Assembly: GCF_019844075.1 (NCBI RefSeq)
Contig: NZ_CP081964.1
Coordinates: 620,001 to 684,000, forward strand
Reading direction: 5' to 3'
DNA from: Curtobacterium sp. TC1
GTDB taxonomy: Bacteria > Actinomycetota > Actinomycetes > Actinomycetales > Microbacteriaceae
DNA: 64,000 bases
Position 1 is the first letter of the stretch. Each line of letters opens with the position of its first letter. The notes beneath the pieces were generated by a model, which was not told the DNA's origin, did not search any database, and worked only from the letters and a program-made list of their open reading frames with translations. The position numbers and the translations under genes are program-made. This document shows, piece after piece, positions 20,114 to 34,120 of the stretch.

Positions 20114-20749
20114 ATGCACATCGAATCATCGCGCCGGACCTCGGACGATGCTGCCCTCCGATCGGCCGTCGTCGACGGGATGATCACGGCACTACGGACG
20201 CGTCCGCTCCACGAGGTCACCCCGGCCGTCGTCGCGGACCACGCCGGTCAGGACGTCGACGTCGTCGGCCGGACGTTCCCCAGCTGGGACGGTCTGCTCC
20301 TGGCCACCATCGACCACTGGAACGAGCAGCGCACCGCACCGCTCATGCCACTCGCCGAACGGTTCGGGACGGTGCCGTTCCTGCGTGCGATCGTGACCGC
20401 GAACATCGCCGACCCGTCACTGATGCGCTTCCTCACCGCCACCCTGAACATCGCGGCGTCACCGGAGCACCCGCTCGCGCCGATGCTGCACGCGCGGTGG
20501 CGCCGGTTCCACGCCTTCGTGCAGGACTCCCTGCAGCGCGACAGCCTGCTCGGTCGCGAACCGAGCACCATGGAGCCGTCGCGCGGCGCCGAGCAGCTGC
20601 TCGCGACCTACGAGGGACTGCAGCTGCAGTCCATGGTGCGCCCCGAGATGGACCTGCTCGAAGCGTTCGACCGGGCAGTCACCCGGTTGCGCGAGGGATG
20701 GTCCCGCGAGTACGTCGCCCCCGTGTGGGACCTCGACCTGGTGAGCTGA
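20114..20749 (+). CDS. TetR-type regulator related to the two BLUF-TetR proteins
   Basis: The 211-residue protein is homologous along its length to the C-terminal halves of the BLUF proteins at 21366-22463 and 29576-30628. They share GREPSTMEPSRGAEQLLATY versus GREPATMDPARATEQLLALY, and a common FDRAVTRLREGWSREY-like end. The helix-turn-helix region (HEVTPAVVADHAGQDVDVVGRTFPSWDGLLLATIDHW) is more diverged. There is no BLUF domain. It looks like a stand-alone paralogue of the same regulator family, possibly a heterodimer partner or competitor. A palindromic TGTATGCATGCACA overlaps the start region, which would fit autoregulation. Confidence 0.75.
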   Translation: MHIESSRRTSDDAALRSAVVDGMITALRTRPLHEVTPAVVADHAGQDVDVVGRTFPSWDGLLLATIDHWNEQRTAPLMPLAERFGTVPFLRAIVTANIADPSLMRFLTATLNIAASPEHPLAPMLHARWRRFHAFVQDSLQRDSLLGREPSTMEPSRGAEQLLATYEGLQLQSMVRPEMDLLEAFDRAVTRLREGWSREYVAPVWDLDLVS

Positions 20750-20949: not shown

Positions 20950-21411
20950 ATGCAGCACCTGACGTTCTCGGTCGCGGCCGAGCCCTTCGACCACGAGGAC
21001 GCCGTCCGGCTGCGCGCCGCGGCCCGGATCGAGGTCGACCGGATCTACGGCCGTCCGGCCGACCGTGGCCGTCCGCTGACCGAGGCGACCGCCGCCGTGC
21101 ACGTCGTCGCCCGAGACCGCTCGGGCTTGGCGCTCGGCACCGCGTCGCTGAGTGCGGCCGGCGACGGCGTGTTCGAGGTCCGGCGGCTGTTCGTCCGACC
21201 GGACTCCCGCGGGCAGGGCGTCGGCGACCTGCTGGTGCTCGAACTGCTCGCGCAGGCCGAAGAGCTGCAGGCACCGGCGGTCGTCGCCGAGTTCGGCGTG
21301 CTGCAGCCGCATGCCGCCGCGCTGTTCACCCGGAACGGGTTCGTGCGGATCCAGCCGTTCGGGCCCTACCGCGACGACCCCGAGTCGGTCTGCTTCTCGC
21401 GGGCGTTGTGA
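20950..21411 (+). CDS. GNAT-family N-acetyltransferase
   Basis: The 153-residue protein has the GNAT acetyl-CoA site VRRLFVRPDSRGQGVGDLLV (R-x-x-G-x-G) after a beta strand, and the terminal helix/strand pair LFTRNGFVRIQPFGPYRDD. It probably transfers an acetyl group from acetyl-CoA to a small molecule or protein amine. GAGGAA lies nine bases before the ATG. It converges with, and overlaps by 46 bases, the BLUF-TetR gene on the other strand. The substrate is unknown. Confidence 0.85.
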   Translation: MQHLTFSVAAEPFDHEDAVRLRAAARIEVDRIYGRPADRGRPLTEATAAVHVVARDRSGLALGTASLSAAGDGVFEVRRLFVRPDSRGQGVGDLLVLELLAQAEELQAPAVVAEFGVLQPHAAALFTRNGFVRIQPFGPYRDDPESVCFSRAL

Positions 21412-22463
21412 TCGCCCGTGCCCTCGACCGGGATCTCGAAGAGGTCCGTGTGCCGGTAGTCCTCGGCCCACCCCCGCCGCAGCCGTGACACGGCGCGGTC
21501 GAAGGACGCGATGATGTCGAACCCCTCGATGAGGAGCGACTGGATCCGCAGACCGTCGTAGAGCGCGAGGAGCTGCTCGGTGGCACGCGCGGGATCCATG
21601 GTGGCCGGTTCGCGACCGACCCGGATGTCCCGCTCGAGTGCTTCCCGGACGGTCCGACGGAACCGGAGGTACAGGGTGCGGTAGTACTCCGCGCCCTCGT
21701 GTCCGGGGTGGGTGCTCGAGGCGAGCGTCGAGGCGAGCAGCCGCATCAGCGCTGGTTCCTCCGAGTACGCCACGACCAGCGCGTGCAGGTAGGCGACTGC
21801 GCCGTGCGTGTCGGCGATCGGCCGCAGGGGTCGTGACACCGAGCTCGACCACCGGTCGACCGTGGCGGTCAGCAGGCTCTCGCGGGTGGGGAAGTGGGTG
21901 CGCAGCTCGTCGACGGTCATCTCGGCCCGGTCGGCGACGGTGTCGACGTCGACCTGCTCGACCCCGGTCTCGTGCAGCGCCGTGATCGTCGCGTTGACGA
22001 TCCGGGTGCGCAGCTCGATGCCGTCGTCGCCGTGCTGGTTCGTCAGCGGCGCCAGGGGGTGCTTCCGGAACCACTCCAGCAGGGCCGTCGCGCGGGACGT
22101 CCCGGCGGCGGGGTCGGGCGCGTGCCCGTCGGCGAAGAGGTCGAGGAACCCCGGGATCTCCTTGATCAACGGGTCCGCCGGTTGGAACGCCATCGACCAC
22201 TCCGGGAAGGACCGCGTCGCGACGGTGTCCGCAGCGACCTGGCGCACGTTGGTGTGACGGGGGTCCTGGCGGATGCCCTCGAACCGTTCCCGCACGACCT
22301 CGTCGTCGCCCTCGATGATGCCGATGCAGTTGCTCCCCTGGTGGGCGAGGATCCCCGTGATGCCCAGCTGCAGGTTCTTCTCGCGACCGACCACCAGGAT
22401 CTCGGCGAGTTCCTCGTCCGTGACCGGTCGGCTCATCGTGCTCACGTACACCAACGACAGCAT
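21366..22463 (-). CDS. BLUF domain-TetR fusion transcription factor (copy 1)
   Basis: This 365-residue protein joins an N-terminal BLUF domain (residues 1-95) to a TetR helix-turn-helix and ligand domain (about 150-345). BLUF domains bind FAD and sense blue light. Tyr6 (LVYVS), Asn30 (REKN), the ITG turn, DPRHTNV, Trp89 and Met91 (FPEWSM) are all present. The switch glutamine, normally in F-x-Q-x-L-E-G, is Gly48 here (CIGIIEG). TetR motifs include VADRAEMTVDELRTHFPTRESLL. AGGGG precedes the ATG, and a GTGTG-TTC-CACAC palindrome lies 26 bases upstream. Light-driven gene control is inferred, and the missing Gln makes classical photochemistry unlikely. Confidence 0.88.
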   Translation of the reverse strand: MLSLVYVSTMSRPVTDEELAEILVVGREKNLQLGITGILAHQGSNCIGIIEGDDEVVRERFEGIRQDPRHTNVRQVAADTVATRSFPEWSMAFQPADPLIKEIPGFLDLFADGHAPDPAAGTSRATALLEWFRKHPLAPLTNQHGDDGIELRTRIVNATITALHETGVEQVDVDTVADRAEMTVDELRTHFPTRESLLTATVDRWSSSVSRPLRPIADTHGAVAYLHALVVAYSEEPALMRLLASTLASSTHPGHEGAEYYRTLYLRFRRTVREALERDIRVGREPATMDPARATEQLLALYDGLRIQSLLIEGFDIIASFDRAVSRLRRGWAEDYRHTDLFEIPVEGTGDHNAREKQTDSGSSR

Positions 22464-22488
22464 GTGGCCCCTGTTCCTCGAAGCGAGC

Positions 22489-22501
22489 GTGTGTTCCACA
22501 C
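22489..22501. promoter_or_regulatory. Candidate operator upstream of the BLUF-TetR gene
   Basis: GTGTG-TTC-CACAC is an inverted repeat located 26 bases upstream of the BLUF-TetR ATG. It could be the autoregulatory site of that protein. Confidence 0.35.
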
Positions 22502-22687
22502 AGTGGCGCACACCGGCTCCGATGGCAAGGCGTGCCGATCGCGTCGCGCTCCGCCTGTCGTCTGCGGCTCGTGGCCGGCGCGCAAGGTGGATGGCGCGGT
22601 GTCCTGGCGGTGGGCCGCTGCCTACGCTGGAGGAACCGGACACCGACCGGGTCCCGGTCGGTGAAGGTGCTCGGAAGAGGTGGGGCA

Positions 22688-23413
22688 GTGTCACGGACGA
22701 AGTCGTTGCGCCGCGCTGCGTTCAGCCTCCCGTCGCGCAGTGCGCGCGTCGTCGAGTTCGTGTTCCGTCGCCTCGACGCGACCGGGGACTTCTACCCGGA
22801 CGACGCGATGGAGGGCACGGTGCCCGGCCCGGACCCGGATCGCGTGGTGTTCGTGGGTGAGCGGGGCGAACTGTCGCTCGGCGTCCGCACCCACGAGCTC
22901 TCGCTCCCCGCGTTCTTCGCTCGGCACCGGGCAGCACGGACGGCGCGCGGCGTCTCCTGGAAGATGATCCCCGCACCGTCGGCGAGTGTCCGGGAACTCC
23001 CGTCCGTCATCGCCGCCCACCGCGAGGACCTGGGGCGGTGCGACCTCGTGGTCGTGTTGGTCGGCATCACGGATGCGCTCCGGGTCCTGCCGACGAGGGT
23101 GTGGGAACAACGCGTCCGTGACACGATCGCTGCCCTGCGCGAGGTGGTGCCCGTGGATGCCGAGGTCGTCATCGGTGAGATCCCACCCCTCGACAACGCC
23201 GGGAGTCTGTCCCGGCCGGCTCGGCTCGCAGCCGGGGTGCACGGTCGGCGCCTCAACGCGCGGACTCGAGTCGTCGCCGAAGCCTGTCCACGGGTGCGCG
23301 CAGTCGGGTTCCCGGACGAGCTGACGCGGTCGGTGTGGCGGCCCGAGTCGGACGAGCACCGGTACCGCGACACGTACAAGGTGTGGGGCGGGCACCTCGA
23401 CGCCCACGTCTGA
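22688..23413 (+). CDS. SGNH-hydrolase-like protein with altered catalytic motifs
   Basis: The 241-residue protein resembles SGNH/GDSL esterases in order: a VVFVGERGELSLGV block I, CDLVVVLVGITDALRV as block III, and AEVVIGEIPPLDN. A typical SGNH 'R.LN' helix (GRRLNARTRVVAEACPRVRAVGF) follows. The block I Gly-Asp-Ser is Gly-Glu-Arg here, the block III Asn is Thr, and no clear Ser/His-Asp end motif is seen. It may not hydrolyse esters. The GTG start is set by GAAGAGG about eight bases upstream. It is divergent from the BLUF-TetR gene and is a candidate target of it. Confidence 0.62.
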   Translation: MSRTKSLRRAAFSLPSRSARVVEFVFRRLDATGDFYPDDAMEGTVPGPDPDRVVFVGERGELSLGVRTHELSLPAFFARHRAARTARGVSWKMIPAPSASVRELPSVIAAHREDLGRCDLVVVLVGITDALRVLPTRVWEQRVRDTIAALREVVPVDAEVVIGEIPPLDNAGSLSRPARLAAGVHGRRLNARTRVVAEACPRVRAVGFPDELTRSVWRPESDEHRYRDTYKVWGGHLDAHV

Positions 23414-23442
23414 CGGCCGCGTCGCCGGACCGCGATCGCGGG

Positions 23443-24159
23443 TCACTGCGACAGTTCGCGGTCCAGTCGGTCGAGGAGTGCCTCGAGGGAGACCTCGAAC
23501 TCCTCGTCGCTGCGGTCCTCGCTCAACAACGTGCGGAGTCGGCGGACCTCCGGTGCGACGTCGAGGGACGTGTTGCCGTCGCCCTCGGGGATGGCGGCGC
23601 CTCCTTCGTCGAGCGGTTCCTCGGCTGGGCCTGCTTCGGCGCCGCTGACCACTGACTGCAGGAGGAGCTGGCCGAGCAGGAAGCTGCTGAACGCTCGGTA
23701 CGCGTTGACCGCCTGGGCGTCCGTGAAGCCGTTCCCCGTCAGCGCGGTCAGGAACGTGTTGACGACCTCGACGCTCCGCAGCGGCGGGCGGAGCCAAGGG
23801 GCTGCTGGGTGGCGGGTCGCCACCAGCGGGAACGCCTTCGGGTGGTCCGTGGCGATCTGCCGGACGGCATGGGCGACCGTTTGCAGGAACCCTTGCCAGT
23901 GTTCTTCCTCGGCCTCGGTGAGCTGCGAGGTGAGATCCCGCATCAGTGAGGCGACGACGCCTTCGAGCAGGTCTTCCTTGCCGTGCACGTAGCGGTACAG
24001 GGACATCGCCTCCACGCTGAGCTCCTGCGCGAGTGACCGCATGGACAGTCCCTGGGGACCTGACCGATCGATCTGCTGCAACGCGGTCTCGACGATGAGG
24101 TCACGGCTGAGCCTCGGTGCGTTCGTCTCGGAACGGTTCGCCCTCGCTCGTGATGCCAC
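23443..24159 (-). CDS. TetR-family regulator with TetR_C-type C-terminal domain
   Basis: The 238-residue protein has a helix-turn-helix (LIVETALQQIDRSGPQGLSM ... LSVEAMSLYRYVHGKEDLL) and a TetR_C-like ligand domain (WQGFLQTVAHAVRQIATDHPKAFPLVATRHP, then FLTALTGNGFTDAQAV). The YRYVHGKEDLL signature is typical of the group that includes tetracycline repressors. The GTG start is set by GGGAG seven bases upstream, although the frame stays open to 24234. Two identical-type palindromes (24245-24257 and 24269-24281) lie between this gene and the divergent PRC/DUF2382 gene, so it probably regulates itself and that cluster. Confidence 0.85.
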   Translation of the reverse strand: MASRARANRSETNAPRLSRDLIVETALQQIDRSGPQGLSMRSLAQELSVEAMSLYRYVHGKEDLLEGVVASLMRDLTSQLTEAEEEHWQGFLQTVAHAVRQIATDHPKAFPLVATRHPAAPWLRPPLRSVEVVNTFLTALTGNGFTDAQAVNAYRAFSSFLLGQLLLQSVVSGAEAGPAEEPLDEGGAAIPEGDGNTSLDVAPEVRRLRTLLSEDRSDEEFEVSLEALLDRLDRELSQ

Positions 24160-24244
24160 GGCTGATCTCCCTGCCGATCCGCGGTTCGTGGCTGACAACG
24201 GGCGCTGCGCCGAGTTCGCGGCCGACAAACCCACGCTATCGCGA

Positions 24245-24281
24245 CTTACGATGTAAGCTCCCGCTGGGCTTACGCCGTAAG
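24245..24281. promoter_or_regulatory. Pair of CTTACG..GTAAG operators
   Basis: CTTACGATGTAAG (24245-24257) and CTTACGCCGTAAG (24269-24281) are inverted repeats with the same CTTAC/GTAAG arms, 24 bases centre to centre. They lie in the gap between the divergent TetR and PRC/DUF2382 genes. The pair looks like a cooperative TetR-type operator. Confidence 0.65.
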
Positions 24282-24389
24282 TCCACGAGGTGGTGGTCTC
24301 CGCCGATCGAGCGGGCCGTGCGCCGCCGTCACCTCGGATCCACTCCGCATCGAACCCCAGGCGACCTGCCGGGGAAGAGGAGTACCACC

Positions 24390-25199
24390 ATGATCGACAG
24401 CAGCAGCATCAACGACCTCACGGGCGCCGACGTCTACGGGAGCGACGACGCCAAGATCGGCACGGTCGGCCAGGTCTACGTCGACAACGACACCCAGGCT
24501 CCGACCTGGGTGACGGTGCGGACCGGGCTCTTCGGCACCTCGGAGTCGTTCGCACCCCTGAACGACGCGACGTTCGAAGCCGGCGCCGTCCACGTCGCCT
24601 ACGAGAAGTCCTTCGTGAAGGACGCCCCGCGGGTCGACGCCGACGGGGCGCTCAGCGCGGACGAGGAGCAGTCGCTCTACTCCTTCTACGGCAACCCGTC
24701 GAGCGCGTCGGCGGATGCGGGTCTGTACGACCAGGACGCCGACCGGAGCACGGACTCCGCCGACGTCCAGGGACACGACACGTCCGGTCCGACGACGGAC
24801 GACGCCATGACCCGCTCCGAGGAGCGGCTGCACGTGGGTACCGAGCGGATCGAGTCCGGCCGTGCCCGTCTGCGCAAGCACATCGTCACCGAGCGGGTCA
24901 CCAAGACCGTGCCCGTCAGCCACGAGGAGGTCACCCTCAGCCGTGAGCCGATCACCGACGCGACCGCCGACGATGCCTTGTCGGGGCCCGCACTGAGCGA
25001 AGAAGAACACGAGGTCGTGCTCACCGAGGAGCGCGTCGTCACCGCCAAGGAGACGGTCCCGGTCGAGCGCGTCCGGCTCGGCACCGAGACCATCGCCGGC
25101 GAGCAGGAGGTCACCGAGGACGTCGCGCACGAGGAGATCGTCCTCGACGACACCGCCGCGACCGACGAGACCATCGCGGACCGCGACGCCCGTTCCTGA
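24390..25199 (+). CDS. PRC-barrel and DUF2382 domain protein
   Basis: The 269-residue soluble protein begins with a PRC-barrel (LTGADVYGSDDAKIGTVGQV, residues 9-80). A disordered acidic linker follows, then a DUF2382 (YsnF-like) domain built of repeated strand pairs such as HIVTERVTKTVPVSHEEV and ETVPVERVRLGTETI. Such proteins are associated with general stress responses in actinobacteria and firmicutes; the molecular role is unknown. GGGGAAGAGG lies shortly before the ATG. It is divergent from the TetR gene, with paired operators in between, and the next genes are a membrane protein and a second DUF2382 protein. Confidence 0.88.
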   Translation: MIDSSSINDLTGADVYGSDDAKIGTVGQVYVDNDTQAPTWVTVRTGLFGTSESFAPLNDATFEAGAVHVAYEKSFVKDAPRVDADGALSADEEQSLYSFYGNPSSASADAGLYDQDADRSTDSADVQGHDTSGPTTDDAMTRSEERLHVGTERIESGRARLRKHIVTERVTKTVPVSHEEVTLSREPITDATADDALSGPALSEEEHEVVLTEERVVTAKETVPVERVRLGTETIAGEQEVTEDVAHEEIVLDDTAATDETIADRDARS

Positions 25200-25201
25200 T
25201 C

Positions 25202-25250
25202 GTGCTGGGCGACGGTCGCTCGGCGACAGCCGGACGTCCGTCGCCAGCAC
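25202..25250 (+). terminator. Hairpin after the PRC/DUF2382 gene
   Basis: GTGCTGGGCGACGG (25202-25215) pairs with CCGTCGCCAGCAC (25238-25250) with one bulge. It starts 2 bases after the stop codon, so transcription may stop or attenuate before the membrane protein gene. Confidence 0.55.
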
Positions 25251-25304
25251 AGGACGCCTCCTCTGCGCCCTGTCCACCCGACCCTCACCCGAAAGGCTCA
25301 CCCC

Positions 25305-26072
25305 ATGGACTTCCCCGCCGCTCTGCAGAACGGACTGGCCGCAGTCATCGCGTTCGTCCCGCTCGCGTTGCTCTTCCTGCTCATCCTCGTCGTCGGCCTG
25401 ATCGTCGCGAAGCTCATCGAGAAGGGGCTCTCGCGTCTCCTCACCAAGGTCGGCTTCGACCGTGCCGTCGAACGCGGGGGCATCAAGAAGGCCCTCGCGA
25501 ACTCGAAACTCGACGCCTCCGACATCGTGTCGAAGATCATCTACTACACGCTGGTGCTGTTCGTGCTCCAGTTCGCGTTCGGCGTCTTCGGGTCCAACCC
25601 GGTGAGTGATCTCCTCGCCGGCATCATCGGGTTCCTGCCGAAGATCATCGTCGCGATCATCATCATCGTGGTCGCCGCGGCGATCGCGGCCGGAGCGAAG
25701 GGCCTGATCCAGAACACGCTCGGTGGTCTCTCCTACGGCAAGCTGCTGGGCAACATCGTCGCGGTCTTCATCGTCTTCATCGGAGCGACCGCGGCGTTGA
25801 ACCAGATCGACGTGGCCACCTCGGTCACCACCCCGATCCTGATCGCGGTCCTCGCGATCATCGCCGGCGTCGTCATCGTCGGAGCCGGCGGCGGACTCAT
25901 CAAGCCGATGCAGCACCGCTGGGAGGCGATCCTCGAGAAGGCCGAGGCCGAAGCCCCGAAGATCCAGCAGCACGCCCAGCGTGCGCCGTCCGTCGTCGAG
26001 CAGGCAGAAGAGGCTGCCGGGAAGGCCAAGCGAGCTGCCTCGACGACGACCAGTTCCCATCGCTCGAACTGA
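25305..26072 (+). CDS. Small-conductance mechanosensitive channel-like membrane protein (TM_helix repeats)
   Basis: The 255-residue protein has about five hydrophobic helices: residues 12-35, 75-95, 103-130, 145-165 and 170-195. Conserved TM_helix motifs follow the MscS-like pattern: VGLIVAKLIEKGLSRLLTKVGFDRAV, VAAAIAAGAKGLIQNTLGGL. A charged C-terminal coiled or disordered tail ends in TSSHRSN. Homologues are annotated as conserved TM-helix proteins or MscS-like channels. The beta domain of true MscS is missing, so channel activity is uncertain. GAAAGG lies ahead of the ATG. It is sandwiched between two DUF2382 genes, suggesting a role in envelope or osmotic stress. Confidence 0.8.
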   Translation: MDFPAALQNGLAAVIAFVPLALLFLLILVVGLIVAKLIEKGLSRLLTKVGFDRAVERGGIKKALANSKLDASDIVSKIIYYTLVLFVLQFAFGVFGSNPVSDLLAGIIGFLPKIIVAIIIIVVAAAIAAGAKGLIQNTLGGLSYGKLLGNIVAVFIVFIGATAALNQIDVATSVTTPILIAVLAIIAGVVIVGAGGGLIKPMQHRWEAILEKAEAEAPKIQQHAQRAPSVVEQAEEAAGKAKRAASTTTSSHRSN

Positions 26073-26086
26073 GCGAGCCCTGTGTG

Positions 26087-26115
26087 TCGGCCCCGCTCAC
26101 CATGGGCGGGGCCGA
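26087..26115 (+). terminator. Terminator after the membrane protein gene
   Basis: TCGGCCCCGC (26087-26096) pairs perfectly with GCGGGGCCGA (26106-26115) around a nine-base loop, 15 bases after the stop. Confidence 0.65.
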
Positions 26116-26174
26116 GGGCCATCCCCGCGCTCCCGTGTTCGCTCGGGACCGTGCCCCCAGCATCGGAGAAGACC

Positions 26175-26615
26175 ATGACCTCCCGCCACGCACCGCGCGA
26201 CGCTCCGGGTGGTGACGACCGGACGGACCAGTTCGACGTGGTCCGACGCGAAGAGCGACTCGTCATCGGCACCGAACGCCACGCCATCGAACGGGTCCGG
26301 CTCGAGCGGGTCATCGTCACCGAGCAGCGGACCATCACGGTGGACGTCAGTCACGAGGAGATCCGACTCGTCCGTGAGCCGATCGGCGGCGCGGTACCGG
26401 TGTCGGCCGGCACCACGGACACCGTCCACGAACCGATCGTCGTGGTCCTCCGCGAGGAACAGATCACGGTCTCGACAGCGGTCGTCCCGGTCGAACGCGT
26501 CACCCTGACGACCCACACCGTCACGGAGGAGCACCGCGTCGAGGCGGGGCTGCGGAGGGAGGAGCTCGACGTCATCACGTCGCGCCGCCGGGCCGGTGGG
26601 GCGCCACTTCCGTGA
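26175..26615 (+). CDS. DUF2382 domain protein
   Basis: The 146-residue protein consists almost entirely of one DUF2382 domain. Its repeats (ERHAIERVRLERVIVTEQRT, VDVSHEEIRLVREPIGG, VVVLREEQITVSTAVVPVERVTLTT) parallel the C-terminal half of the protein at 24390-25199, so the two are paralogues. There is no PRC-barrel, signal peptide or membrane helix. A GGAGAA site precedes the ATG. The function is unknown; context suggests stress response. It converges with the MarR gene. Confidence 0.83.
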   Translation: MTSRHAPRDAPGGDDRTDQFDVVRREERLVIGTERHAIERVRLERVIVTEQRTITVDVSHEEIRLVREPIGGAVPVSAGTTDTVHEPIVVVLREEQITVSTAVVPVERVTLTTHTVTEEHRVEAGLRREELDVITSRRRAGGAPLP

Positions 26616-26650
26616 GTCACGCGGAGGACCCGTGAGGGAGTCGGTCGTCC

Positions 26651-27118
26651 TCAGTCGACGCTGGCTTCGCGGAAGGCGTGCGACACGCGTTCGGTGAAGT
26701 GGATGAACACCTCCGTGCTCTCCGGCGGCAAGGACTGCCGGAGTGCCCGGCGGTAGGCGGCCCGGAGCGTCCCGACCACCGCGAACCCGTCGGCGCTCAG
26801 CTCGATCCGCACGCTCCGGCGGTCGTCCGGGTTGCGGACACGATCGAGCAGGCCTCGCTTGGTCAGGCGGTCGAGCAGGGCGGTGACGGCTCCCGTCCCC
26901 ATCTCCAGGTACCCGCCGAGTTCCTTCGGCGTGCGGTCGTCGTCGACTGCGCCGAGGAACTTCAGCGCGCGGAGGTCGACCGGGTTCAGGTCGTGCGTGA
27001 CAGCGAGGTGCTGCATCAGGTGCGCGTGCTCGACCTGAGCGCTGTAGAACGCGGCGACCGCCTCGTCCAGCAGACGATCCTGGTCGGCGTCACTCATCGG
27101 AGGAGGGCTCGCGCTCAT
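26651..27118 (-). CDS. MarR-family transcriptional regulator
   Basis: The 155-residue protein has the MarR winged helix: LNPVDLRALKFLGAVDDDRT, the recognition helix KELGGYLEMGTGAVTALLDRLTKRGLL, and the wing RVRNPDDRRSVRIELSADG. The ATG at 27118 is supported by TAAGAT six bases upstream (leaderless). The intergenic region to the divergent SipW-substrate gene contains a good promoter and a CTCGAA-A-TTCGAG palindrome (27193-27205). The protein therefore probably represses that exported protein and its peptidase. Confidence 0.9.
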   Translation of the reverse strand: MSASPPPMSDADQDRLLDEAVAAFYSAQVEHAHLMQHLAVTHDLNPVDLRALKFLGAVDDDRTPKELGGYLEMGTGAVTALLDRLTKRGLLDRVRNPDDRRSVRIELSADGFAVVGTLRAAYRRALRQSLPPESTEVFIHFTERVSHAFREASVD

Positions 27119-27124
27119 GCTCCC

Positions 27125-27130
27125 ATCTTA
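27125..27130 (-). promoter_or_regulatory. Leaderless -10 box of the MarR gene
   Basis: TAAGAT on the minus strand, six bases before the ATG at 27118. Confidence 0.42.
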
Positions 27131-27154
27131 GACGAGATCCGTTTGGGACAAAAA

Positions 27155-27184
27155 TTGACTTGAACGAATTTGTAGGCGTATGGT
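27155..27184 (+). promoter_or_regulatory. Sigma-A-type promoter of the SipW-substrate gene
   Basis: TTGACT (27155-27160), an 18-base spacer and TATGGT (27179-27184) form the best consensus-like promoter in the window. The local sequence is unusually AT-rich. It drives the gene starting at 27236. Confidence 0.6.
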
Positions 27185-27192
27185 TCACCTAG

Positions 27193-27205
27193 CTCGAAAT
27201 TCGAG
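27193..27205. promoter_or_regulatory. Candidate MarR operator
   Basis: CTCGAA-A-TTCGAG is a perfect 6-base-arm palindrome just after the -10 box of the promoter at 27155-27184, where a bound repressor would cover the transcription start. Confidence 0.5.
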
Positions 27206-27235
27206 TCAAGTCTCAACCTGAACGGATCTCCTCTC

Positions 27236-27838
27236 ATGCGTCGCCCGAACCGCACCATCGCCCGTGTCGCCACCCTCGCCGTCATCCCGGCTGCCCTGCT
27301 CGCTGCCGGTGTCGCCGTGTCCACCGCGTCGTACTCGGCGTTCTCGGCCACCTCGTCGGACGACGCCAACAACTGGTCGATGGGATCGGTGGCGCTGAGC
27401 AACGACGCATCGAACGGTGCGCTCTTCGCTGCGTCGAACCTCAAGCCCGGTTCCACCGGGACGAACTGCATCGCCGTCACCTCGACTGGCTCGCTCCCCA
27501 GTGCAGTGAAGCTCTACGCCACGAACGTGCAGCAGACCAAGGCGCTGGCCTCGTACGTCACCCTGCAGGTCAAGCAGGGCAGCGGTGGAGGCTACGGCAC
27601 GTGCAACGGCTTCACCGCGGCGGCCGGGTCCGACGGTCTCCTCTACAACGACTCCCTCGCGTCGTTCGCGTCCACCCGAACGAGCTACGCCACCGGCGTC
27701 GGGACGTGGAAGCCGACCGGCGACAAGTCGGAGACCAAGACCTACCAGATCACCTACACCGTCTCGTCGGATGCCCCGGCCTCCCTGATGGGTGCCACCG
27801 CGAGCCTCGGGTTCACCTGGGAAGCACAGAACTCCTGA
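27236..27838 (+). CDS. SipW-dependent-type exported protein (camelysin/TasA-like)
   Basis: The 200-residue protein has a signal peptide (ATLAVIPAALLAAGVAVSTAS) followed directly by YSAFSATSSDDANNWSMGSV. That arrangement is typical of SipW substrates such as TasA, camelysin and their actinobacterial relatives. The mature part is a beta-rich domain with Cys in NCIAVTSTGS and GTCNGF that may pair. The relatives form extracellular fibres or surface layers. The next gene is an ER-type signal peptidase, which fits processing of this protein. A good promoter and a MarR-type palindrome lie upstream. I infer a surface fibre or matrix role; this is not shown. Confidence 0.8.
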   Translation: MRRPNRTIARVATLAVIPAALLAAGVAVSTASYSAFSATSSDDANNWSMGSVALSNDASNGALFAASNLKPGSTGTNCIAVTSTGSLPSAVKLYATNVQQTKALASYVTLQVKQGSGGGYGTCNGFTAAAGSDGLLYNDSLASFASTRTSYATGVGTWKPTGDKSETKTYQITYTVSSDAPASLMGATASLGFTWEAQNS

Positions 27839-27869
27839 GCGGCCGGGAGGACACGAGAGGAGGTCGGTC

Positions 27870-28856
27870 GTGCGTCCGTCCGTGTGGGGTCGGTTCGCCG
27901 TGGTGCTCGGCGCCCGGGGGGTCCTGGCTGCCGTCCTCGGTCTCGTGTTCTGGGCTGTCGCTCCGATGGTCCTCGGCTGGCACACCACCACGGTGATGAC
28001 CGGCTCCATGGAGCCGTCCCTGCACCCGGGTGACGTCGTGGTGAGCAAGACGGTCGCCGCGGGAGAGCTCCGGAAGGGACAGGTGTTGCTCTTCGCCGAC
28101 CCCGACCACGTCGGCACCCTCCGGCTGCACCGGTTCGACTCCCTCAACAGCGACGGAACCCTCACCACGAAGGGCGACGCGAACCCCTCCGCCGACTCCA
28201 CGCACATCTCCCGGTCCGCGGTCACGGGAGTCGGGTACCTCCGTGTCCCGCTCATCGGCACACCCGTCCTCTGGGCTGCGGACCATCGAACGGGCCCGCT
28301 CGTCGCCCTCGGTTCGGCCCTCGTCCTCGTCGCTGGACTCGCCGTCCTGCCCGCCGTCGCAGATCCGAGCAGGACGACGGGGGCGTCCCGACGTGGGCCC
28401 CGGCATCGTCAGCAGGACCACCGGCCGTGGGCGGTGGGGGCACTCCTCGTCACTTCTGTCTGCACCGTCGCGGCGCTGGCGGTACCTGCTCCGGCGGCCG
28501 CCGCGGCCTTCGCCGCCACCGCCACCGCACCCAGCACGATGGCGACCGTGGCCGCGACCCCGGCCACTGCGCTGACGTGCACGTCGAACACGAACGGGTC
28601 GGTCACCATCGGGTGGAGCTACGACGGGGTGGCACCCGAGCGGTTCACCACGGTGATCGACGGCGTCGCGAGCAGCGACACCAGCGCCGGCACCGCCCGA
28701 TCCACCACGATCAGCTCCTGGGACCTCTTCTCGTTCCGCACCTCCAGTGTCACCGTCCGCGCCGACGTCACCTCGACGTGGACGACGACCTCCGCCAGCA
28801 GCGTCCGCATCAGCACCGTCCGCTTCCTCGGACTCGGCCGCACCAGTTGCGCCTGA
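27870..28856 (+). CDS. SipW-type signal peptidase I fused to an exported C-terminal domain
   Basis: The 328-residue protein has an N-terminal membrane helix, then the peptidase core with Ser46 (VMTGSMEPSLHPGD) and His87 (LRLHRFDSL) replacing the usual bacterial lysine. TTKGDANPSAD completes the ER/SipW type. After a second helix (VALGSALVLVAGLAVLP) there is a third hydrophobic segment that looks like an internal signal (LLVTSVCTVAALAVPAPAAAA). A domain of about 100 residues follows, with one cysteine near each end (ALTCTS, GRTSCA). The GTG start follows AGGAGG. It probably cleaves the upstream camelysin-like protein; the extra domain is unusual. Confidence 0.82.
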   Translation: MRPSVWGRFAVVLGARGVLAAVLGLVFWAVAPMVLGWHTTTVMTGSMEPSLHPGDVVVSKTVAAGELRKGQVLLFADPDHVGTLRLHRFDSLNSDGTLTTKGDANPSADSTHISRSAVTGVGYLRVPLIGTPVLWAADHRTGPLVALGSALVLVAGLAVLPAVADPSRTTGASRRGPRHRQQDHRPWAVGALLVTSVCTVAALAVPAPAAAAAFAATATAPSTMATVAATPATALTCTSNTNGSVTIGWSYDGVAPERFTTVIDGVASSDTSAGTARSTTISSWDLFSFRTSSVTVRADVTSTWTTTSASSVRISTVRFLGLGRTSCA

Positions 28857-28884
28857 CCCGATCCCGCCCTCGTGGGCCGGGAGG

Positions 28885-29496
28885 TCACGACGTCCGCGAA
28901 GGCGCCACGCGGAGCCCGGTGGAGCGCCGCTCGAGATCGGCCAGCTCGCGGATGACCTCCGGATCCCGGTGCCGCCACCGGTCGACGACGTCGACGCCGA
29001 GCCGGCCGGCGGCGTTCCGGGTCGTCAACGCGCGGACAGCGAGCAACTCGGCTCCGTCCGGCTGCTGACCGAGGCGCTGTGTGAGCGTGGCGAGCCGGAT
29101 GAAGCCGCCGCGGTACCGGATCCAGACCACCACCAGGACGATGATCAGCACCGCGGTCGACGAGGTACCCAGGAGGTGCGCCACGTGCAGCGTCTCCTGC
29201 TGCTGTTCTGCTCCGGCAGCCGCGATCCGCTGCGCGCTCTGGCTCGCGTCCTGCAGCGGTGCGCTGACCGACTTGCCGATGAACGGCACCTTCTCGAGTG
29301 CCGTTGCGGTGCTGCTCAACTGCTCCTGGAACGCGGTGCCCTGGTCGTGGACACGAGTTCCGATGTCGGCGAGGGCGCTGATCGATGCGGAGACCGCTCG
29401 CCCGAGCAGAACCGCGGCGACCATCCCGGCCACCACGACGACATCGAGCAGCACCTGCCCTGCGGTGCGGATCGGACGTGCGTCGTAGAACACCAT
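28885..29496 (-). CDS. Hypothetical membrane protein with two membrane helices
   Basis: The 203-residue protein has one hydrophobic helix at about residues 14-34 (VLLDVVVVAGMVAAVLLG) and another at about 108-127 (TSSTAVLIIVLVVVWIRYRGG). A helical loop of about 70 residues separates them (VHDQGTAFQEQLSSTATALEKVPFIGKSV). The cytoplasmic tail is basic and acidic. The layout, with a loop that includes VPFIGKSVSAPLQDA, recalls actinobacterial sensor-like or envelope proteins. I do not recognise the family. TAGGAC lies six bases before the ATG, possibly leaderless. It converges with the SipW peptidase gene. Confidence 0.65.
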   Translation of the reverse strand: MVFYDARPIRTAGQVLLDVVVVAGMVAAVLLGRAVSASISALADIGTRVHDQGTAFQEQLSSTATALEKVPFIGKSVSAPLQDASQSAQRIAAAGAEQQQETLHVAHLLGTSSTAVLIIVLVVVWIRYRGGFIRLATLTQRLGQQPDGAELLAVRALTTRNAAGRLGVDVVDRWRHRDPEVIRELADLERRSTGLRVAPSRTS

Positions 29497-29575
29497 GGAC
29501 AGGTCCTACCACTCGCACGATGCTGTGCCTCTCGGCGATCGGCCCATGTGGAGTCGGCGGAACCGGCTCCCGTCG

Positions 29576-30628
29576 TCAGGCGCTGGGGATCGTGGGCAGG
29601 TCCCAGTAGGCGGGTCGTTCGTAGTGTTCGGTCCAGCCCCGTCGCATGCGCGACGCGGCGCGGTCGAAGGCGTCGACGACGTCGGTGTCCGGTGTGAGGA
29701 GCGCCTGCAGGCGGATGCCGTCGTAGAGGGCGAGGAGCTGCTGTGCACCGCGGATCGGATCCATCGTGGCGGGTTCCCGCCCGGCACGGACGTCTTCGGC
29801 GAGGGCGGTGCGCACGGTCTCACGGAACTGGAGGTAGGCGGACCGGTAGTAGTCCGCTCCGTCGGTCGACGGATCGGTCGACGTGGCGAGTGTGGACGCG
29901 ATCAGGCGCATCAGGGCTGGTTCCTCGGCGTGGGCGGCGAGGAGCGCGTGCAGGAACGCGATCGTGCCCTTCTCGGCGGCGAGGGGGAGCAGGGGAGCAG
30001 AGACTGCTCGGGTCCACCGCATCACGGTCGCGGCGAGCACGGCGTGCTGCGACGGGAAGAGCCCCAGGACCTCGGGGACCGTCATCCCCGCGCGTTCTGC
30101 GACGTCCTCGAGGGTGAACCGGGACGCGCCGCCGGCGTGGACAGCGGTGATCGCGGCGTTCAGGATCCGGGTTCGGGGGATCTCCTCGTCGGCCGCGTCC
30201 TGGTTCGTCAAGGGAGCGAGCGGGTGCTTCCGGAACCAGTCGAGCAGGGCACGCGCGCGGGACGCACCGAAGGTGGAGTCATTGGGGCGGTTGGCGGTGA
30301 AGAGGCCGCTGAACCCCGGCACGTCGTGCAGCAACGGGTCGAGCGGCTGGAACGCCATCGACCAGTCCGGGAAGGACCGGTGTCGGATCGGCTCGTTGAG
30401 GAGCACTCGGACGTTGGTGTGGCGGGGATCGGCTCGGACCTGATCGAAGCGTTCAGCAACGACGTCGTCGTCGCCCTCGATGATGCCGATGCAGTTGTCG
30501 TCGCGGTGTGCGAGCATCCCGGTGACACCGAGGCGTGTGTTCTTCTCCCGGCCGACGGCGAGGATCTGCGCGAGTTCCGAGTCCGTGATCAGTCGGGTCT
30601 GCGTGCTGGTGTAGACGAGCGATCGCAT
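29576..30628 (-). CDS. BLUF domain-TetR fusion transcription factor (copy 2)
   Basis: This 350-residue paralogue of the protein at 21366-22463 has the same domain order and the same key residues: Tyr6 (LVYTS), Asn30 (REKN), Trp89 and Met91 (FPDWSM). It also has the same glycine (Gly48, CIGIIEG) in place of the BLUF switch glutamine. The linker RALLDWFRKHPLAPLTNQ is nearly identical in both. The TetR part (LEDVAERAGMTVPEVLGLFPSQHAVLAATV) is followed by a ligand domain ending FDRAASRMRRGWTEHYERP. GAGGGG precedes the ATG. It probably binds DNA as a dimer; flavin binding and any light response remain to be shown. Confidence 0.88.
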   Translation of the reverse strand: MRSLVYTSTQTRLITDSELAQILAVGREKNTRLGVTGMLAHRDDNCIGIIEGDDDVVAERFDQVRADPRHTNVRVLLNEPIRHRSFPDWSMAFQPLDPLLHDVPGFSGLFTANRPNDSTFGASRARALLDWFRKHPLAPLTNQDAADEEIPRTRILNAAITAVHAGGASRFTLEDVAERAGMTVPEVLGLFPSQHAVLAATVMRWTRAVSAPLLPLAAEKGTIAFLHALLAAHAEEPALMRLIASTLATSTDPSTDGADYYRSAYLQFRETVRTALAEDVRAGREPATMDPIRGAQQLLALYDGIRLQALLTPDTDVVDAFDRAASRMRRGWTEHYERPAYWDLPTIPSA

Positions 30629-30734
30629 GGCGGTTTCCCCTCAGGTTCTGACATGACCGGACCGACCACAGCGTGCTCCACCTCGACCGCCGCGGCAACC
30701 CCCTGAACGGGAGACGCCGCGGCGACCGCGGTAC

Positions 30735-32459
30735 TCACCCGGATGACGTCTTGGTGAGACCGTGCTCCGTCTTCTCCCAGTAGTGGGGGCGGGTGATGAG
30801 CTGCCACAGGCCCTTGTAGGCGGCGACCGAGTGCAGCACCCAGTACACGGGGTTCAGCAACGCCCAGAGCATCAGGTCGAACCGCGCGCGTTTGTACGGT
30901 CCCATCATGGTCAAGTAGATCATCGTGGCGTTGCCGAGCAGGAAGTCGAGCACGCACAGCCAGAGCACCGGGGCGGGGAACACCGGGGCCGTCCACGCCG
31001 TTGGCAGCACGAGCGTGGCGATCGTCACCGCGATGCCGGGCAGCATGCCGAGGAACGTCAACGGCGTCCCGGCGATGAGCAGCGCGAACGCGGCAGCCCG
31101 GCGCACCCCGATCTCCCGCACGAGCGCACGGGGGCGCCGGGCGTGGACGAGGGCGGTCTGCATGTACCCCTTGATCCACCGCGACCGCTGCCGGACGAAG
31201 TTCGGGATCGAGGTGTTCGCCTCCTCCATCGTGGTCGAGTTGACGACGGAGACGCGGTACCCGACCGCGGACGCACGGATCCCCAGGTCGGCGTCCTCGG
31301 TGACGTTGTAGGGGTCCCAACCACCGAGCTCACGCAGGAGCTCGGTGCGGAAGTGGTTCGAGGTCCCGCCCAGCGGGATCGGCAGGTTCCGGGCGTCGAG
31401 GCCGGCGAGCATGTAGTCGAACCAGTACGAGTACTCCAGCGTGAACATGCGCGTCAGGGCGTTCTCATCGGCGTTGAAGTAGCTCAGGGCGGCCTGGACG
31501 CACACCGTGTCGGTGCCGGCCCGCTCGAACGTGGTGAACACCTTCTTGAGCTGGTCGGGGTCGGGCCGGTCCTCGGCGTCGTAGATGACCACGTACTCGC
31601 CGCGGGCGATCGCGAGGCCGACGTTGCAGGCGCGCGGCTTGGTCTGCGGCGCACCGGGAGGGACGATGACGATCCGCATCCAGGCCGGTGGTTCAGCGTC
31701 GAGGACGGCCTGGCGTGTCTCGTGGTCCTCGGCCTCGACGAGGACCAGGACCTCGAGGCGGTCCTTCGGCCAGTCGAGGACCTCGAGGTTGCGGACGAGG
31801 TCGCCGACGATGTTCGCCTCGCGGAACACCGGGACCAGGACGGTGTACGTCGGCAGCGTGGTGTCGTCGAGCGCGGCGACGTCGGCCGCTGAGACCTGCT
31901 CGACGAGGTCGAAGCGGGCGCCGACCATGGAGACCCAGAACTTGAAGACGATGCCGGCCAGGAACCCGAGCGAGAGCACCGCGGTGACGATGGCAGCCGT
32001 CGTGCCGGGAGCGATCACCAGGCAGCCGGCGAACGCGAGCAGGGCGATGCCGCCGCCGACCTGTTGACCGCGGGACAGCACCGTGCGGGCGGACATGGCC
32101 GGGATCGTCCGGGCGAGGTCGTGTGCCGCGAGGTCGGCGACCTCGTCGTCCAGCTCCCACATGATGCGCTGGCGGACCTCTGCCTCGTCGACCGCCCGGA
32201 GCACGACCGGCTCGCCGAACTCCTCGGTCAAGGCGGCCCGGAGCACATCCGGGTCCGACCGGCCGCTGGTCAGGACGAGGACCCCCTCGCGGATCCGTGC
32301 GGAGGCGACCCAGCCCTCGTCGACGTGCCGGCGGACCGAGCACCGGTGCGGCGGGCGCCAGTCGGACTCGCCGCCGCGGTGCCGGGCGGTCGTCTCGTCG
32401 ATCGACGGGGTGTCGGTCGCGCTGGTGACGGCGGACGCACCGGGCACGACGGCGGTCAT
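30735..32459 (-). CDS. Processive-type family-2 glycosyltransferase (membrane)
   Basis: The 574-residue protein has an N-terminal soluble region of about 125 residues that resembles a GspE/MshEN-type domain. Two membrane helices (GGIALLAFAGCLVIA, IVTAVLSLGFLAGIVF) and a GT-A catalytic domain follow, with VLVPVFREANI, the metal motif YDAEDRPDP, TEDADLG as catalytic acid and QRSRWIKG (Q-x-x-R-W). Three or four C-terminal membrane helices complete it. The layout matches cellulose/hyaluronan-synthase-like enzymes that polymerise and extrude a beta-linked polysaccharide. The ATG overlaps the upstream membrane gene by four bases. The sugar is unknown. Confidence 0.9.
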   Translation of the reverse strand: MTAVVPGASAVTSATDTPSIDETTARHRGGESDWRPPHRCSVRRHVDEGWVASARIREGVLVLTSGRSDPDVLRAALTEEFGEPVVLRAVDEAEVRQRIMWELDDEVADLAAHDLARTIPAMSARTVLSRGQQVGGGIALLAFAGCLVIAPGTTAAIVTAVLSLGFLAGIVFKFWVSMVGARFDLVEQVSAADVAALDDTTLPTYTVLVPVFREANIVGDLVRNLEVLDWPKDRLEVLVLVEAEDHETRQAVLDAEPPAWMRIVIVPPGAPQTKPRACNVGLAIARGEYVVIYDAEDRPDPDQLKKVFTTFERAGTDTVCVQAALSYFNADENALTRMFTLEYSYWFDYMLAGLDARNLPIPLGGTSNHFRTELLRELGGWDPYNVTEDADLGIRASAVGYRVSVVNSTTMEEANTSIPNFVRQRSRWIKGYMQTALVHARRPRALVREIGVRRAAAFALLIAGTPLTFLGMLPGIAVTIATLVLPTAWTAPVFPAPVLWLCVLDFLLGNATMIYLTMMGPYKRARFDLMLWALLNPVYWVLHSVAAYKGLWQLITRPHYWEKTEHGLTKTSSG

Positions 32460-33625
32460 GCGCCCACCGCCGAGACCAGGGCGTGCATCCACTCGGCGAC
32501 GACCTCGCGTTCGAACGCCGCGGTCCACGCGAGCGGGATCTGGAGGGCGGCGAGCACCATGACGAGAGCGCTCGTGACCCGGCTGCTGACCCGCGGGAGG
32601 ATCGCGATCGCGACGGCGAGCATCGTGACGAACGTGTTGCCGGCGGTGGCGACCGGGATGAGCCCGATCGCGTAGCCGGCGAGGATCCCGGCGAACAGCG
32701 CGACCACGATGACGATCGCACCGGGTCGGTGCACGAGCAGGGCCAGGAGGCACCCCGCGACGACCATCGCGAGGAGCAACAGCCCGTCGAACGAACCCAC
32801 CAGGTACTCGAGGCCGCTCAGCCGGGTGCTGTCGGTGTGCACGGTGTTCCGCAGTGCCGCGAACGGGTCGCGGAGGACGAGCAGGTCGAGCACGGACATC
32901 GAGCCGATGACGGCGATGCTCGGGAACACGAGGACGAGCGTGTTCGCTCGGCGGATGCCCGGCTGTCCGTGCCGGGCGAGCTCCAGCAGCGGGGCGGTCA
33001 GAGCTGCGATGACGACGTAGACGAGGCCCATCGGGTCGACGAGCGTCGACACCATCAACGACAGGCCGGCACGGAACCCCGCCTGGGTGTCGCCGTACGA
33101 GAAGAACCGCACCATGTCGGCGATCGCGAGCGCGAACAGCGCGATGCCGAGGAAGGCCTGCAGGTCGTTGAGGGCGACGAAGGCGTAGAGCGGGTTCGCG
33201 CCGAGCGCGATCGTGAAGACGACCACCTTCCGCATCCGGAGACCGCGCCGGAGCATCGCCTGCGCCAGGAGCTGCAGCAGCACGCCGGCTGCGAGGCCAC
33301 CGAGGACCGCTGCGCCGTGCACGCCGAACGGCAGGAACCGGAGCAGGACGCCGGAGAGCAGCGGGTAGAGCTGACCGACGGCCTGCACGACGCCGCCGTC
33401 GATGGCTGCCGTCGCCCGATCGAGGGTCGCCTGGTTGCCGGTGAGCTCCAGGAGCGGTGTGGTCGGGATCTTCATCGAGAGCACGGCGACCACGACGTAG
33501 GGCACGGCGAACGCGAGCCGGAGGAGCCACCGCGTCCACGCGCGGGGGAGCGGCCGGAGCGCCGATCGGTGCGGCGGCTCGGCCGACGACAGGACGGCGC
33601 TCAGACGCGGGACGGTGACGGTCAT
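32456..33625 (-). CDS. Polytopic membrane protein, partner of the family-2 glycosyltransferase
   Basis: The 389-residue protein has about nine hydrophobic helices (for example LLRLAFAVPYVVVAVLSM, VLGGLAAGVLLQLLAQAML, IVIVVALFAGILAGYAIGL) with short loops. ALGANPLYAFVALNDLQAFLG suggests a GT-C or transporter-like fold, but I cannot name the family. AAGGAG sits six bases before the ATG. Its stop overlaps the start of the glycosyltransferase gene, so the pair is coupled and probably works together in building or exporting a polysaccharide. CCCC/GGGG-type dyads lie 70-115 bases upstream. Confidence 0.78.
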   Translation of the reverse strand: MTVTVPRLSAVLSSAEPPHRSALRPLPRAWTRWLLRLAFAVPYVVVAVLSMKIPTTPLLELTGNQATLDRATAAIDGGVVQAVGQLYPLLSGVLLRFLPFGVHGAAVLGGLAAGVLLQLLAQAMLRRGLRMRKVVVFTIALGANPLYAFVALNDLQAFLGIALFALAIADMVRFFSYGDTQAGFRAGLSLMVSTLVDPMGLVYVVIAALTAPLLELARHGQPGIRRANTLVLVFPSIAVIGSMSVLDLLVLRDPFAALRNTVHTDSTRLSGLEYLVGSFDGLLLLAMVVAGCLLALLVHRPGAIVIVVALFAGILAGYAIGLIPVATAGNTFVTMLAVAIAILPRVSSRVTSALVMVLAALQIPLAWTAAFEREVVAEWMHALVSAVGA

Positions 33626-33694
33626 GCGCGCTCCTTCGGGTGGATGCGGACAGTGGAGCCCAGGCACCCATCACAGTCGGAGGACAGACGAATC

Positions 33695-33740
33695 GGTACA
33701 CCCAGAACGGGGTACAGGCGAGTCCCCCAGAGTGAGGACA
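33695..33740. promoter_or_regulatory. Two CCC..GGGG dyads upstream of the glycosyltransferase operon
   Basis: GGTACACCCAGAACGGGGTA begins at 33695, and AGTCCCCCAGAGTGAGGACA spans 33721-33740. They share CCCAGA 25 bases apart, a spacing that would put two bound dimers on roughly the same DNA face. Similar dyads occur upstream of other envelope genes in the window. Confidence 0.45.
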
Positions 33741-33916
33741 TCTACGCATCTCGTGAATGGGGGTGCCGCCGCGTCGAACCCGAATCGACACGCCGGCACC
33801 CACCGTGACCGCCCCACCCGAGGGAGGTCACCTTCGCTTGGTGCCAAAGCTCCGCGCGGATCTCGTCCGCAACGGAGTTGCTGACTCGACGACCCAATCA
33901 GGCGACTCGCCTCGTT

Positions 33917-33937
33917 GGTATCCCCCAAACGGGGAAC
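33917..33937. promoter_or_regulatory. CCCC..GGGG dyad
   Basis: GGTATCCCCCAAACGGGGAA begins at 33917 and has the same layout as the dyads at 33695-33740, near the middle of the divergent region. Confidence 0.42.
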
Positions 33938-34120
33938 GCGCGTTCTCCGGATGGCGGCAGGGCCGCTCCCGTCGATTTCCGCGTACCTGTGCGCCCGGAG
34001 AGCGGCACGTCCGTACCGTCTCGTGAGCTACCCCGCGCCGCCCAGCTGCGGGGGCCCGATCCCTGTTCCGGGCTGGCATCGTCGCGGACCGCCCCGCCGA
34101 ACCCGACGTCGTCGTAGCGC

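Follow-up and report, generated by a model that had tools for sequence, protein, structure and literature searches.

BLUF photoreceptors are regarded as defined by a switch Gln; in one of them, Slr1694, a Phe stands two residues before it. In studied BLUF proteins that lack this Gln, the signalling state is reported not to form (PMC5899715, PMC3915823). A BLUF+AcrR protein of Curtobacterium luteum (WP_058726129.1, 335 aa) has been tabulated (PMC8508746). We analyzed a gene of comparable architecture, here called gene A, in a 64,000-nt stretch of Curtobacterium sp. TC1 (hereafter, the window). A preliminary description of this DNA had reported a BLUF domain that lacks the switch Gln and sits on a TetR repressor. 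We found that gene A belongs to a BLUF-TetR family in which the switch Gln is absent throughout, nearly always in favour of Gly, and, in the members that keep the flavin-pocket Tyr, an invariant Cys stands two residues before it.

Gene A starts with ATG and contains no internal stops; its strand (minus) was absent from the preliminary description. The Pfam BLUF profile PF04940 spans residues 1 to 92 with all 92 profile positions covered (86.3 bits; cut-off, 25), and TetR_C_6 matches residues 223 to 312 (37.2 bits; cut-off, 27). The TetR_N match at residues 155 to 200 is below its cut-off (19.7 versus 24 bits), and the protein has a TetR fold with an N-terminal helix-turn-helix (HTH). Foldseek matches to 1yrx, 1x0p, and 2hfo (best chains, E = 2.7e-08 to 8.3e-07) support the BLUF fold of the structure model, which has a predicted local distance difference test (pLDDT) score of 79 and aligns to Slr1694 (2hfo chain C) with a root-mean-square deviation of 1.3 over 93 columns. 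Gene A is a true BLUF-TetR fusion, as previously described. The four pocket residues listed at that time (Tyr6, Asn30, Trp89, and Met91) are all present, and so are Asp67, Arg69, and His70, which together we take to be flavin-binding residues of the BLUF domain. The domain probably binds flavin, judging from its sequence. Within the linker, the stretch TSRATALLEWFRKHP resembles the C-terminal tail of two short, Gln-bearing BLUF proteins, one encoded in the same genome (L001) and one in another genome of the genus (L139).

Codons 46 to 48 of gene A read TGC ATC GGC (Cys-Ile-Gly), within S-N-C-I-G-I-I-E-G at residues 44 to 52. In the HMMER alignment, Gly48 falls opposite the BlrB (2byc) Gln and no gap lies nearby, which bears out the reported absence of the switch Gln; the protein is therefore not classed as a canonical BLUF photoreceptor. 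We searched the alignment for another Gln that might take the role and found none in the gene A protein. At position 10, where strand 1 ends, 65 of the 73 aligned rows with a letter there have Gln but gene A has Met. Gene A does have Gln42, but most relatives carry Lys or Arg at that position. Sequencing error and chance were ruled out, since Gly48 recurs in orthologues and in the two TC1 paralogues.

The alignment (A1) combines the query with 73 of 81 homologues, the omitted P0075 to P0082 being short matches with no listed BLUF domain. Position 48 is Gly in 72 of the 73 rows with a letter there (query included) and Ala in one. Reading 190 loci directly from DNA, duplicates included (for example, L004 is identical to L142), we detected Gly48 in 75 of 75 BLUF-TetR frames, compared to Gln in 108 and Ser in one of the 109 BLUFs not fused to TetR. 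Counted as distinct domains, these loci yield 45 Tyr-bearing and 7 Tyr-less fused domains versus 103 Gln domains. Three plasmid copies of BLUF-TetR likewise have Gly48. A broad profile matches 5699 short BLUFs among database proteins, and the best 120 of the 5699 have 119 Gln and one His at position 48, with one further partial domain that does not reach this position. All nine other BLUF-bearing genomes in a phylum sample of 396 genomes have Gln; BLUFs in 98 family genomes were matched, and 30 loci of these were read. Gln is near-invariant outside the BLUF-TetR family among the BLUFs read and is absent across that whole family. Gly is shared by all DNA-read fusions, and the Gln loss first noticed in gene A is a trait of the entire fused family.

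We also compared distinct domains over residues 3 to 91 in a combined set of DNA loci, database proteins, and plasmid copies. Tyr6, Asn30, Ala40, His41, Asn45, Cys46, Gly48, His70, Trp89, and Met91 are each present in 92 of 92 Tyr-bearing family domains (one of which, P0070, has no recognised TetR part). Across these domains, 63 of the 89 compared positions are variable, and mean pairwise identity is 0.79. All 103 Gln-type domains combine Gln48 with Phe, Ile, or Val at position 46, and none has Cys46. Positions 48 (Gly versus Gln) and 46 (Cys versus Phe/Ile/Val) therefore split the Tyr-bearing fused domains from the Gln BLUFs completely; position 10, mostly Gln in the fused domains and mostly Ala in the Gln BLUFs, nearly splits them and is variable inside the family. 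All 69 Tyr-bearing rows of A1 have Cys46, and 40 of these 69 proteins, gene A among them, contain no other Cys. As far as these comparisons go, an invariant Cys46 accompanied the Gln loss, a point that the preliminary description did not make. Strand b3 of the gene A model (residues 45 to 52) holds both Cys46 and Gly48. Since they lie two residues apart, their side chains would be expected on the same side of the strand, presumably the side that faces the flavin in solved BLUFs. In the open-licence PMC literature, we found no description of the contacts made by the Phe whose place Cys46 takes.

A tree was built from 151 BLUF domains and their tails (Tyr-bearing rows from loci above L076 left out); in it, the fused domains make up a single clade, within Microbacteriaceae, with support 100/98. 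Its nearest neighbour in the sample is L139, whose segment L-A-H-R-D-G-R-F-I-Q-V-L-E-G keeps F-x-Q. L139 already has Ala40 and His41 but not Asn45, Cys46, or Gly48. F-x-Q turned into C-x-G on the branch leading to the fused clade. TetR-only relatives form their own group in a mixed tree (100/99), which therefore names no donor of the fused TetR part. Both trees are drawn with midpoint roots and leave many forks open. Ratios of nonsynonymous to synonymous substitution rates (dN/dS), calculated from 526 non-independent pairs among 55 proteins, are well under 1: 0.32 for BLUF, 0.33 for the linker, 0.29 for the TetR core, and 0.53 for the HTH. Decay of gene A was ruled out, given that the BLUF value is similar to that of the TetR core. 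The faster evolution of the DNA-binding part (alignment residues 146 to 200) looks as if paralogues had come to recognize different operators.

Some family members have lost Tyr6. The change to Phe maps to two or three branches, all long (0.85, 1.13, and 1.23), and the starred branches force at least two such events. The 10 distinct Tyr-less domains, which represent only two or three lineages, have lost His41 in nine cases, Cys46 in nine, His70 in nine, and Met91 in six; Asn30 is kept in 10 of 10 and Gly48 in nine of 10, with Ala in the remaining one. The joint loss of Tyr6, His41, Cys46, and His70 is probably the loss of one working unit, the flavin site.

Fused genes are common in the genus of the window, where 45 of 66 genomes have a fused-profile match extending into the BLUF part with a best E of 1e-99 or less, a count that rests on profile score and includes one partial match (G327, profile 1 to 235). 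The other 21 genomes have weaker matches only, which, among the matches listed, lie in the TetR part (profile position ≥91). Five candidates per genome were scored across 396 genomes sampled from the order, and among these a full-length match was detected in TC1's own genome only. Plasmids add eight records with at least 80% query coverage, seven from Curtobacterium and one from Frigoribacterium. Further BLUF-TetR fusions, for which the preliminary description had advised a database search, therefore exist both in other genomes of the genus and on plasmids. Of the three fused Gly-type genes in TC1 itself, two are inside the window; its genome also encodes two short Gln BLUFs (L001 and L003), located far from the fused genes.

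We tentatively propose that the Tyr-bearing BLUF-TetR proteins are flavin-binding, one-component repressors that signal through the radical or redox state of the flavin. The change from Phe-x-Gln to Cys-x-Gly deprives these proteins of the Gln tautomerisation/rotation switch on which ordinary BLUFs rely. The C-terminal tail of the BLUF domain would run directly into the TetR repressor, making a single-chain transcription regulator. Tyr-bearing members, including gene A, would retain flavin in the BLUF domain, and this flavin would be reduced by blue light or chemically, with Tyr6, Trp89, and possibly Cys46 as donors. The change would be relayed through the Trp89/Met91 strand and the linker to the TetR dimer, which would then let go of DNA. 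The Tyr-less members, in contrast, would be blind and are predicted to carry no flavin. Light or redox sensing coupled to DNA binding, as envisaged in the preliminary description, is thus a prediction for gene A. That description had also called the Gln essential. This stands for the switch, which is abolished in the studied proteins, but not for every light response: Slr1694 Gln50Ala is reported to have no red shift yet to form a flavin semiquinone-tyrosyl radical pair lasting several nanoseconds versus <100 ps (PMC4555020), and some BLUF variants without Gln or Tyr are reported to keep weak light signalling, which led their authors to propose that radicals might be enough (PMC4630285). Natural Cys-less LOV-like proteins are described as responding to chemical reduction or photoreduction of their flavin (PMC4682037).

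Several observations weigh against a flavin radical or redox signal in this family. The radical pairs of Gln50Ala do not outlast the nanosecond range (PMC4555020), and a further step is required for any stable signal. Asp67 is missing from 4 of the 92 Tyr-bearing domains and Arg69 from 4 of the 92, and the orientation of Cys46 toward the flavin is deduced from strand alternation. Tyr6 was lost in at least two lineages whose frames stayed open, while Gly48 stayed in nine of 10 domains, and photochemistry is therefore dispensable for at least some members. Nor is the co-loss with Tyr6 clean, since P0072 retains His41 and His70 and P0069 retains Cys46. Gln-less BLUFs also exist outside the family (Ser in L084, His in P0190); Gln loss alone is thus not unique to BLUF-TetR. 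In the mixed tree, L139 (39% of columns filled) falls inside the BLUF-TetR clade, although we trust its placement in the BLUF-only tree more. When we compared the window neighbours to 41 loci, the neighbourhood was not conserved beyond the syntenic locus L065 and included no obvious light gene, and no obvious light gene was detected among 10 neighbour genes scanned in 20 drawn loci, where genes were called by a crude rule based on GC content at third codon positions. Inverted repeats occur upstream of some family members, but our upstream palindrome search detected no operator common to the members.

It is possible, if rather unlikely, that the domain is blind and serves as a structural or dimerisation module, its flavin perhaps static or frozen in a lit-like state, while the TetR part answers a small ligand. 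Gly48 eliminates the switch, and two or more lineages without Tyr6, mostly also without His70, retain an open, full-length frame. Slr1694 Q50A and AppA Q63E are reported to be trapped in a pseudo-lit state (PMC6695109), and in E. coli BluF a degenerate EAL domain is reported to be re-used for protein contact (PMC3509220). However, a mere scaffold would need none of Tyr6, Asn30, His70, Trp89, and Met91, which are fixed in the 92 Tyr-bearing domains together with the gained Cys46, and the long branches of the Tyr-less lineages suggest that constraint was lifted only there.

More doubtful is a variant in which a cysteine-flavin sensor evolved from a hydrogen-bond-switch BLUF, with Cys46 acting on the flavin as an electron or hydrogen donor, or as a LOV-like adduct partner, and a new photo- or redox-chemistry within the BLUF fold directly gating the repressor. 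It is improbable that short Gln BLUFs of the same cell act as partners of the Gln-less BLUF and supply the light input: TC1 does encode two such proteins beside its three Gly BLUF-TetRs, and the gene A linker resembles a short-BLUF tail, but the genes are distant from one another, and of the 21 genus genomes that lack a fused gene, 19 also have BLUF matches among the matches listed. A near-canonical photocycle, in which another residue or a water fills the Gly48 cavity with the invariant His41 or Asn45 as partner, is very unlikely because neither residue is special to the family (16 of 103 and 13 of 103 Gln BLUFs, respectively, have them) and Gln removal is reported to abolish the signalling state (PMC5899715, PMC3915823).

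The features of the window are listed in Table 1. A TetR-only gene, in which the TetR_C_6 match is below the cut-off, and a GNAT gene adjoin gene A, and both are also present in L065, the syntenic site of strain VKM Ac-1393 (84% and 88% identity). In the region 21366 to 33956 of the window, the two BLUF-TetR genes border about 7 kb that is absent from that site, where a glycosyltransferase operon directly adjoins a single BLUF-TetR. VKM Ac-1393 has part of this stretch (26651 to 30781) on another contig (L056) with two BLUF-TetR genes, and the difference looks like recombination between repeated BLUF-TetR genes. A SpoIIE/PP2C-type phosphatase gene stands beside BLUF-TetR in two contexts: in L073 (4210 to 6011) it overlaps the start of a Tyr-less BLUF-TetR, and in L200 (3099 to 6092), on plasmid P20, it is divergent from BLUF-TetR and adjoins a sigma-70-family gene. 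MarR-family genes, which are common generally, recur a few kilobases from BLUF-TetR (L200, L201, L202, and window 26651 to 27118). Among other BLUFs, Nocardioides ferulae has two consecutive BLUF genes (L084, 5001 to 6005), the second with Ser for Gln and Thr for Met; P0190 is a short database BLUF with His at the Gln position; and P0087 is a 250-aa database protein with one partial and one complete BLUF domain in a single chain.

Table 1. Coordinates of gene A, its parts, and related or adjoining genes in the window
Feature	Position	Strand	Basis or remark
BLUF-TetR gene A, 365 aa	21366..22463	minus	Open reading frame, Pfam, and structure model
BLUF domain, residues 1-95	22179..22463	minus	PF04940 86.3 bits and Foldseek
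Asn45-Cys46-Ile47-Gly48 replacing canonical x-F-x-Q, strand b3	22320..22331	minus	92 family versus 103 Gln-type domains
Linker, residues 96-145	22029..22178	minus	Sequence; includes TSRATALLEWFRKHP
TetR repressor part, residues 146-336	21456..22028	minus	
Ribosome-binding-site-like GAGGAA	22474..22479	minus	Sequence; ten bases before gene A ATG
BLUF-TetR gene B, 350 aa, Tyr6/Cys46/Gly48	29576..30628	minus	
TetR-only relative of the gene A TetR part, no BLUF	20114..20749	plus	192.6 bits over profile 141-337
GNAT acetyltransferase gene	20950..21411	plus	Convergent with gene A; overlaps its 3' end by 46 bases

Our searches of the open-licence PMC literature turned up no account of a BLUF family that naturally lacks the Gln. 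The BLUF+AcrR architecture was already known in C. luteum, and the family-wide change of Phe-x-Gln to Cys-x-Gly appears to be new. Like the Cys-less LOV proteins, the BLUF-TetR family provides a natural experiment, here on the question of which elements of BLUF signalling depend on Gln, with a close Gln-bearing relative (L139) available for comparison within the same genus. A single-chain flavin-TetR fusion is also attractive for placing gene expression under light or redox control.

Compared to the BLUF photoreceptors (PF04940; Slr1694/PixD, AppA, BlrB, BlsA, and OaPAC), gene A has the same fold and the Tyr, Asn, Trp, Met, and Arg/His signature, but it has Gly for the switch Gln, an invariant Cys for Phe, and a TetR effector. 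The C. luteum protein shares genus and architecture with gene A, and its 335 aa fit the Tyr-less subgroup, by length only; a Tyr-less member (L072) is located in C. luteum NS184. The table in which that protein appears names the architecture and does not mention a missing Gln or Tyr (PMC8508746). In Slr1694 Gln50Ala (Fudim 2015, as described in PMC4555020), the same residue is removed and Tyr is kept, as in gene A, but this is a laboratory mutant in which the Phe two residues earlier is still in place, whereas gene A represents a natural Cys-x-Gly family. The Cys-less LOV-like proteins (PMC4682037) are likewise described as flavin photoreceptor domains that naturally lack the signature photochemical residue, with a response by flavin reduction of the kind proposed for gene A; they differ in fold and in the residue lost. 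Finally, E. coli BluF (YcgF) and BluR (PMC3509220) resemble the scheme proposed for gene A in that a BLUF protein controls a DNA-binding repressor, but there the task is reported to be divided between two separate proteins, with a MerR-like repressor and an EAL domain in between.
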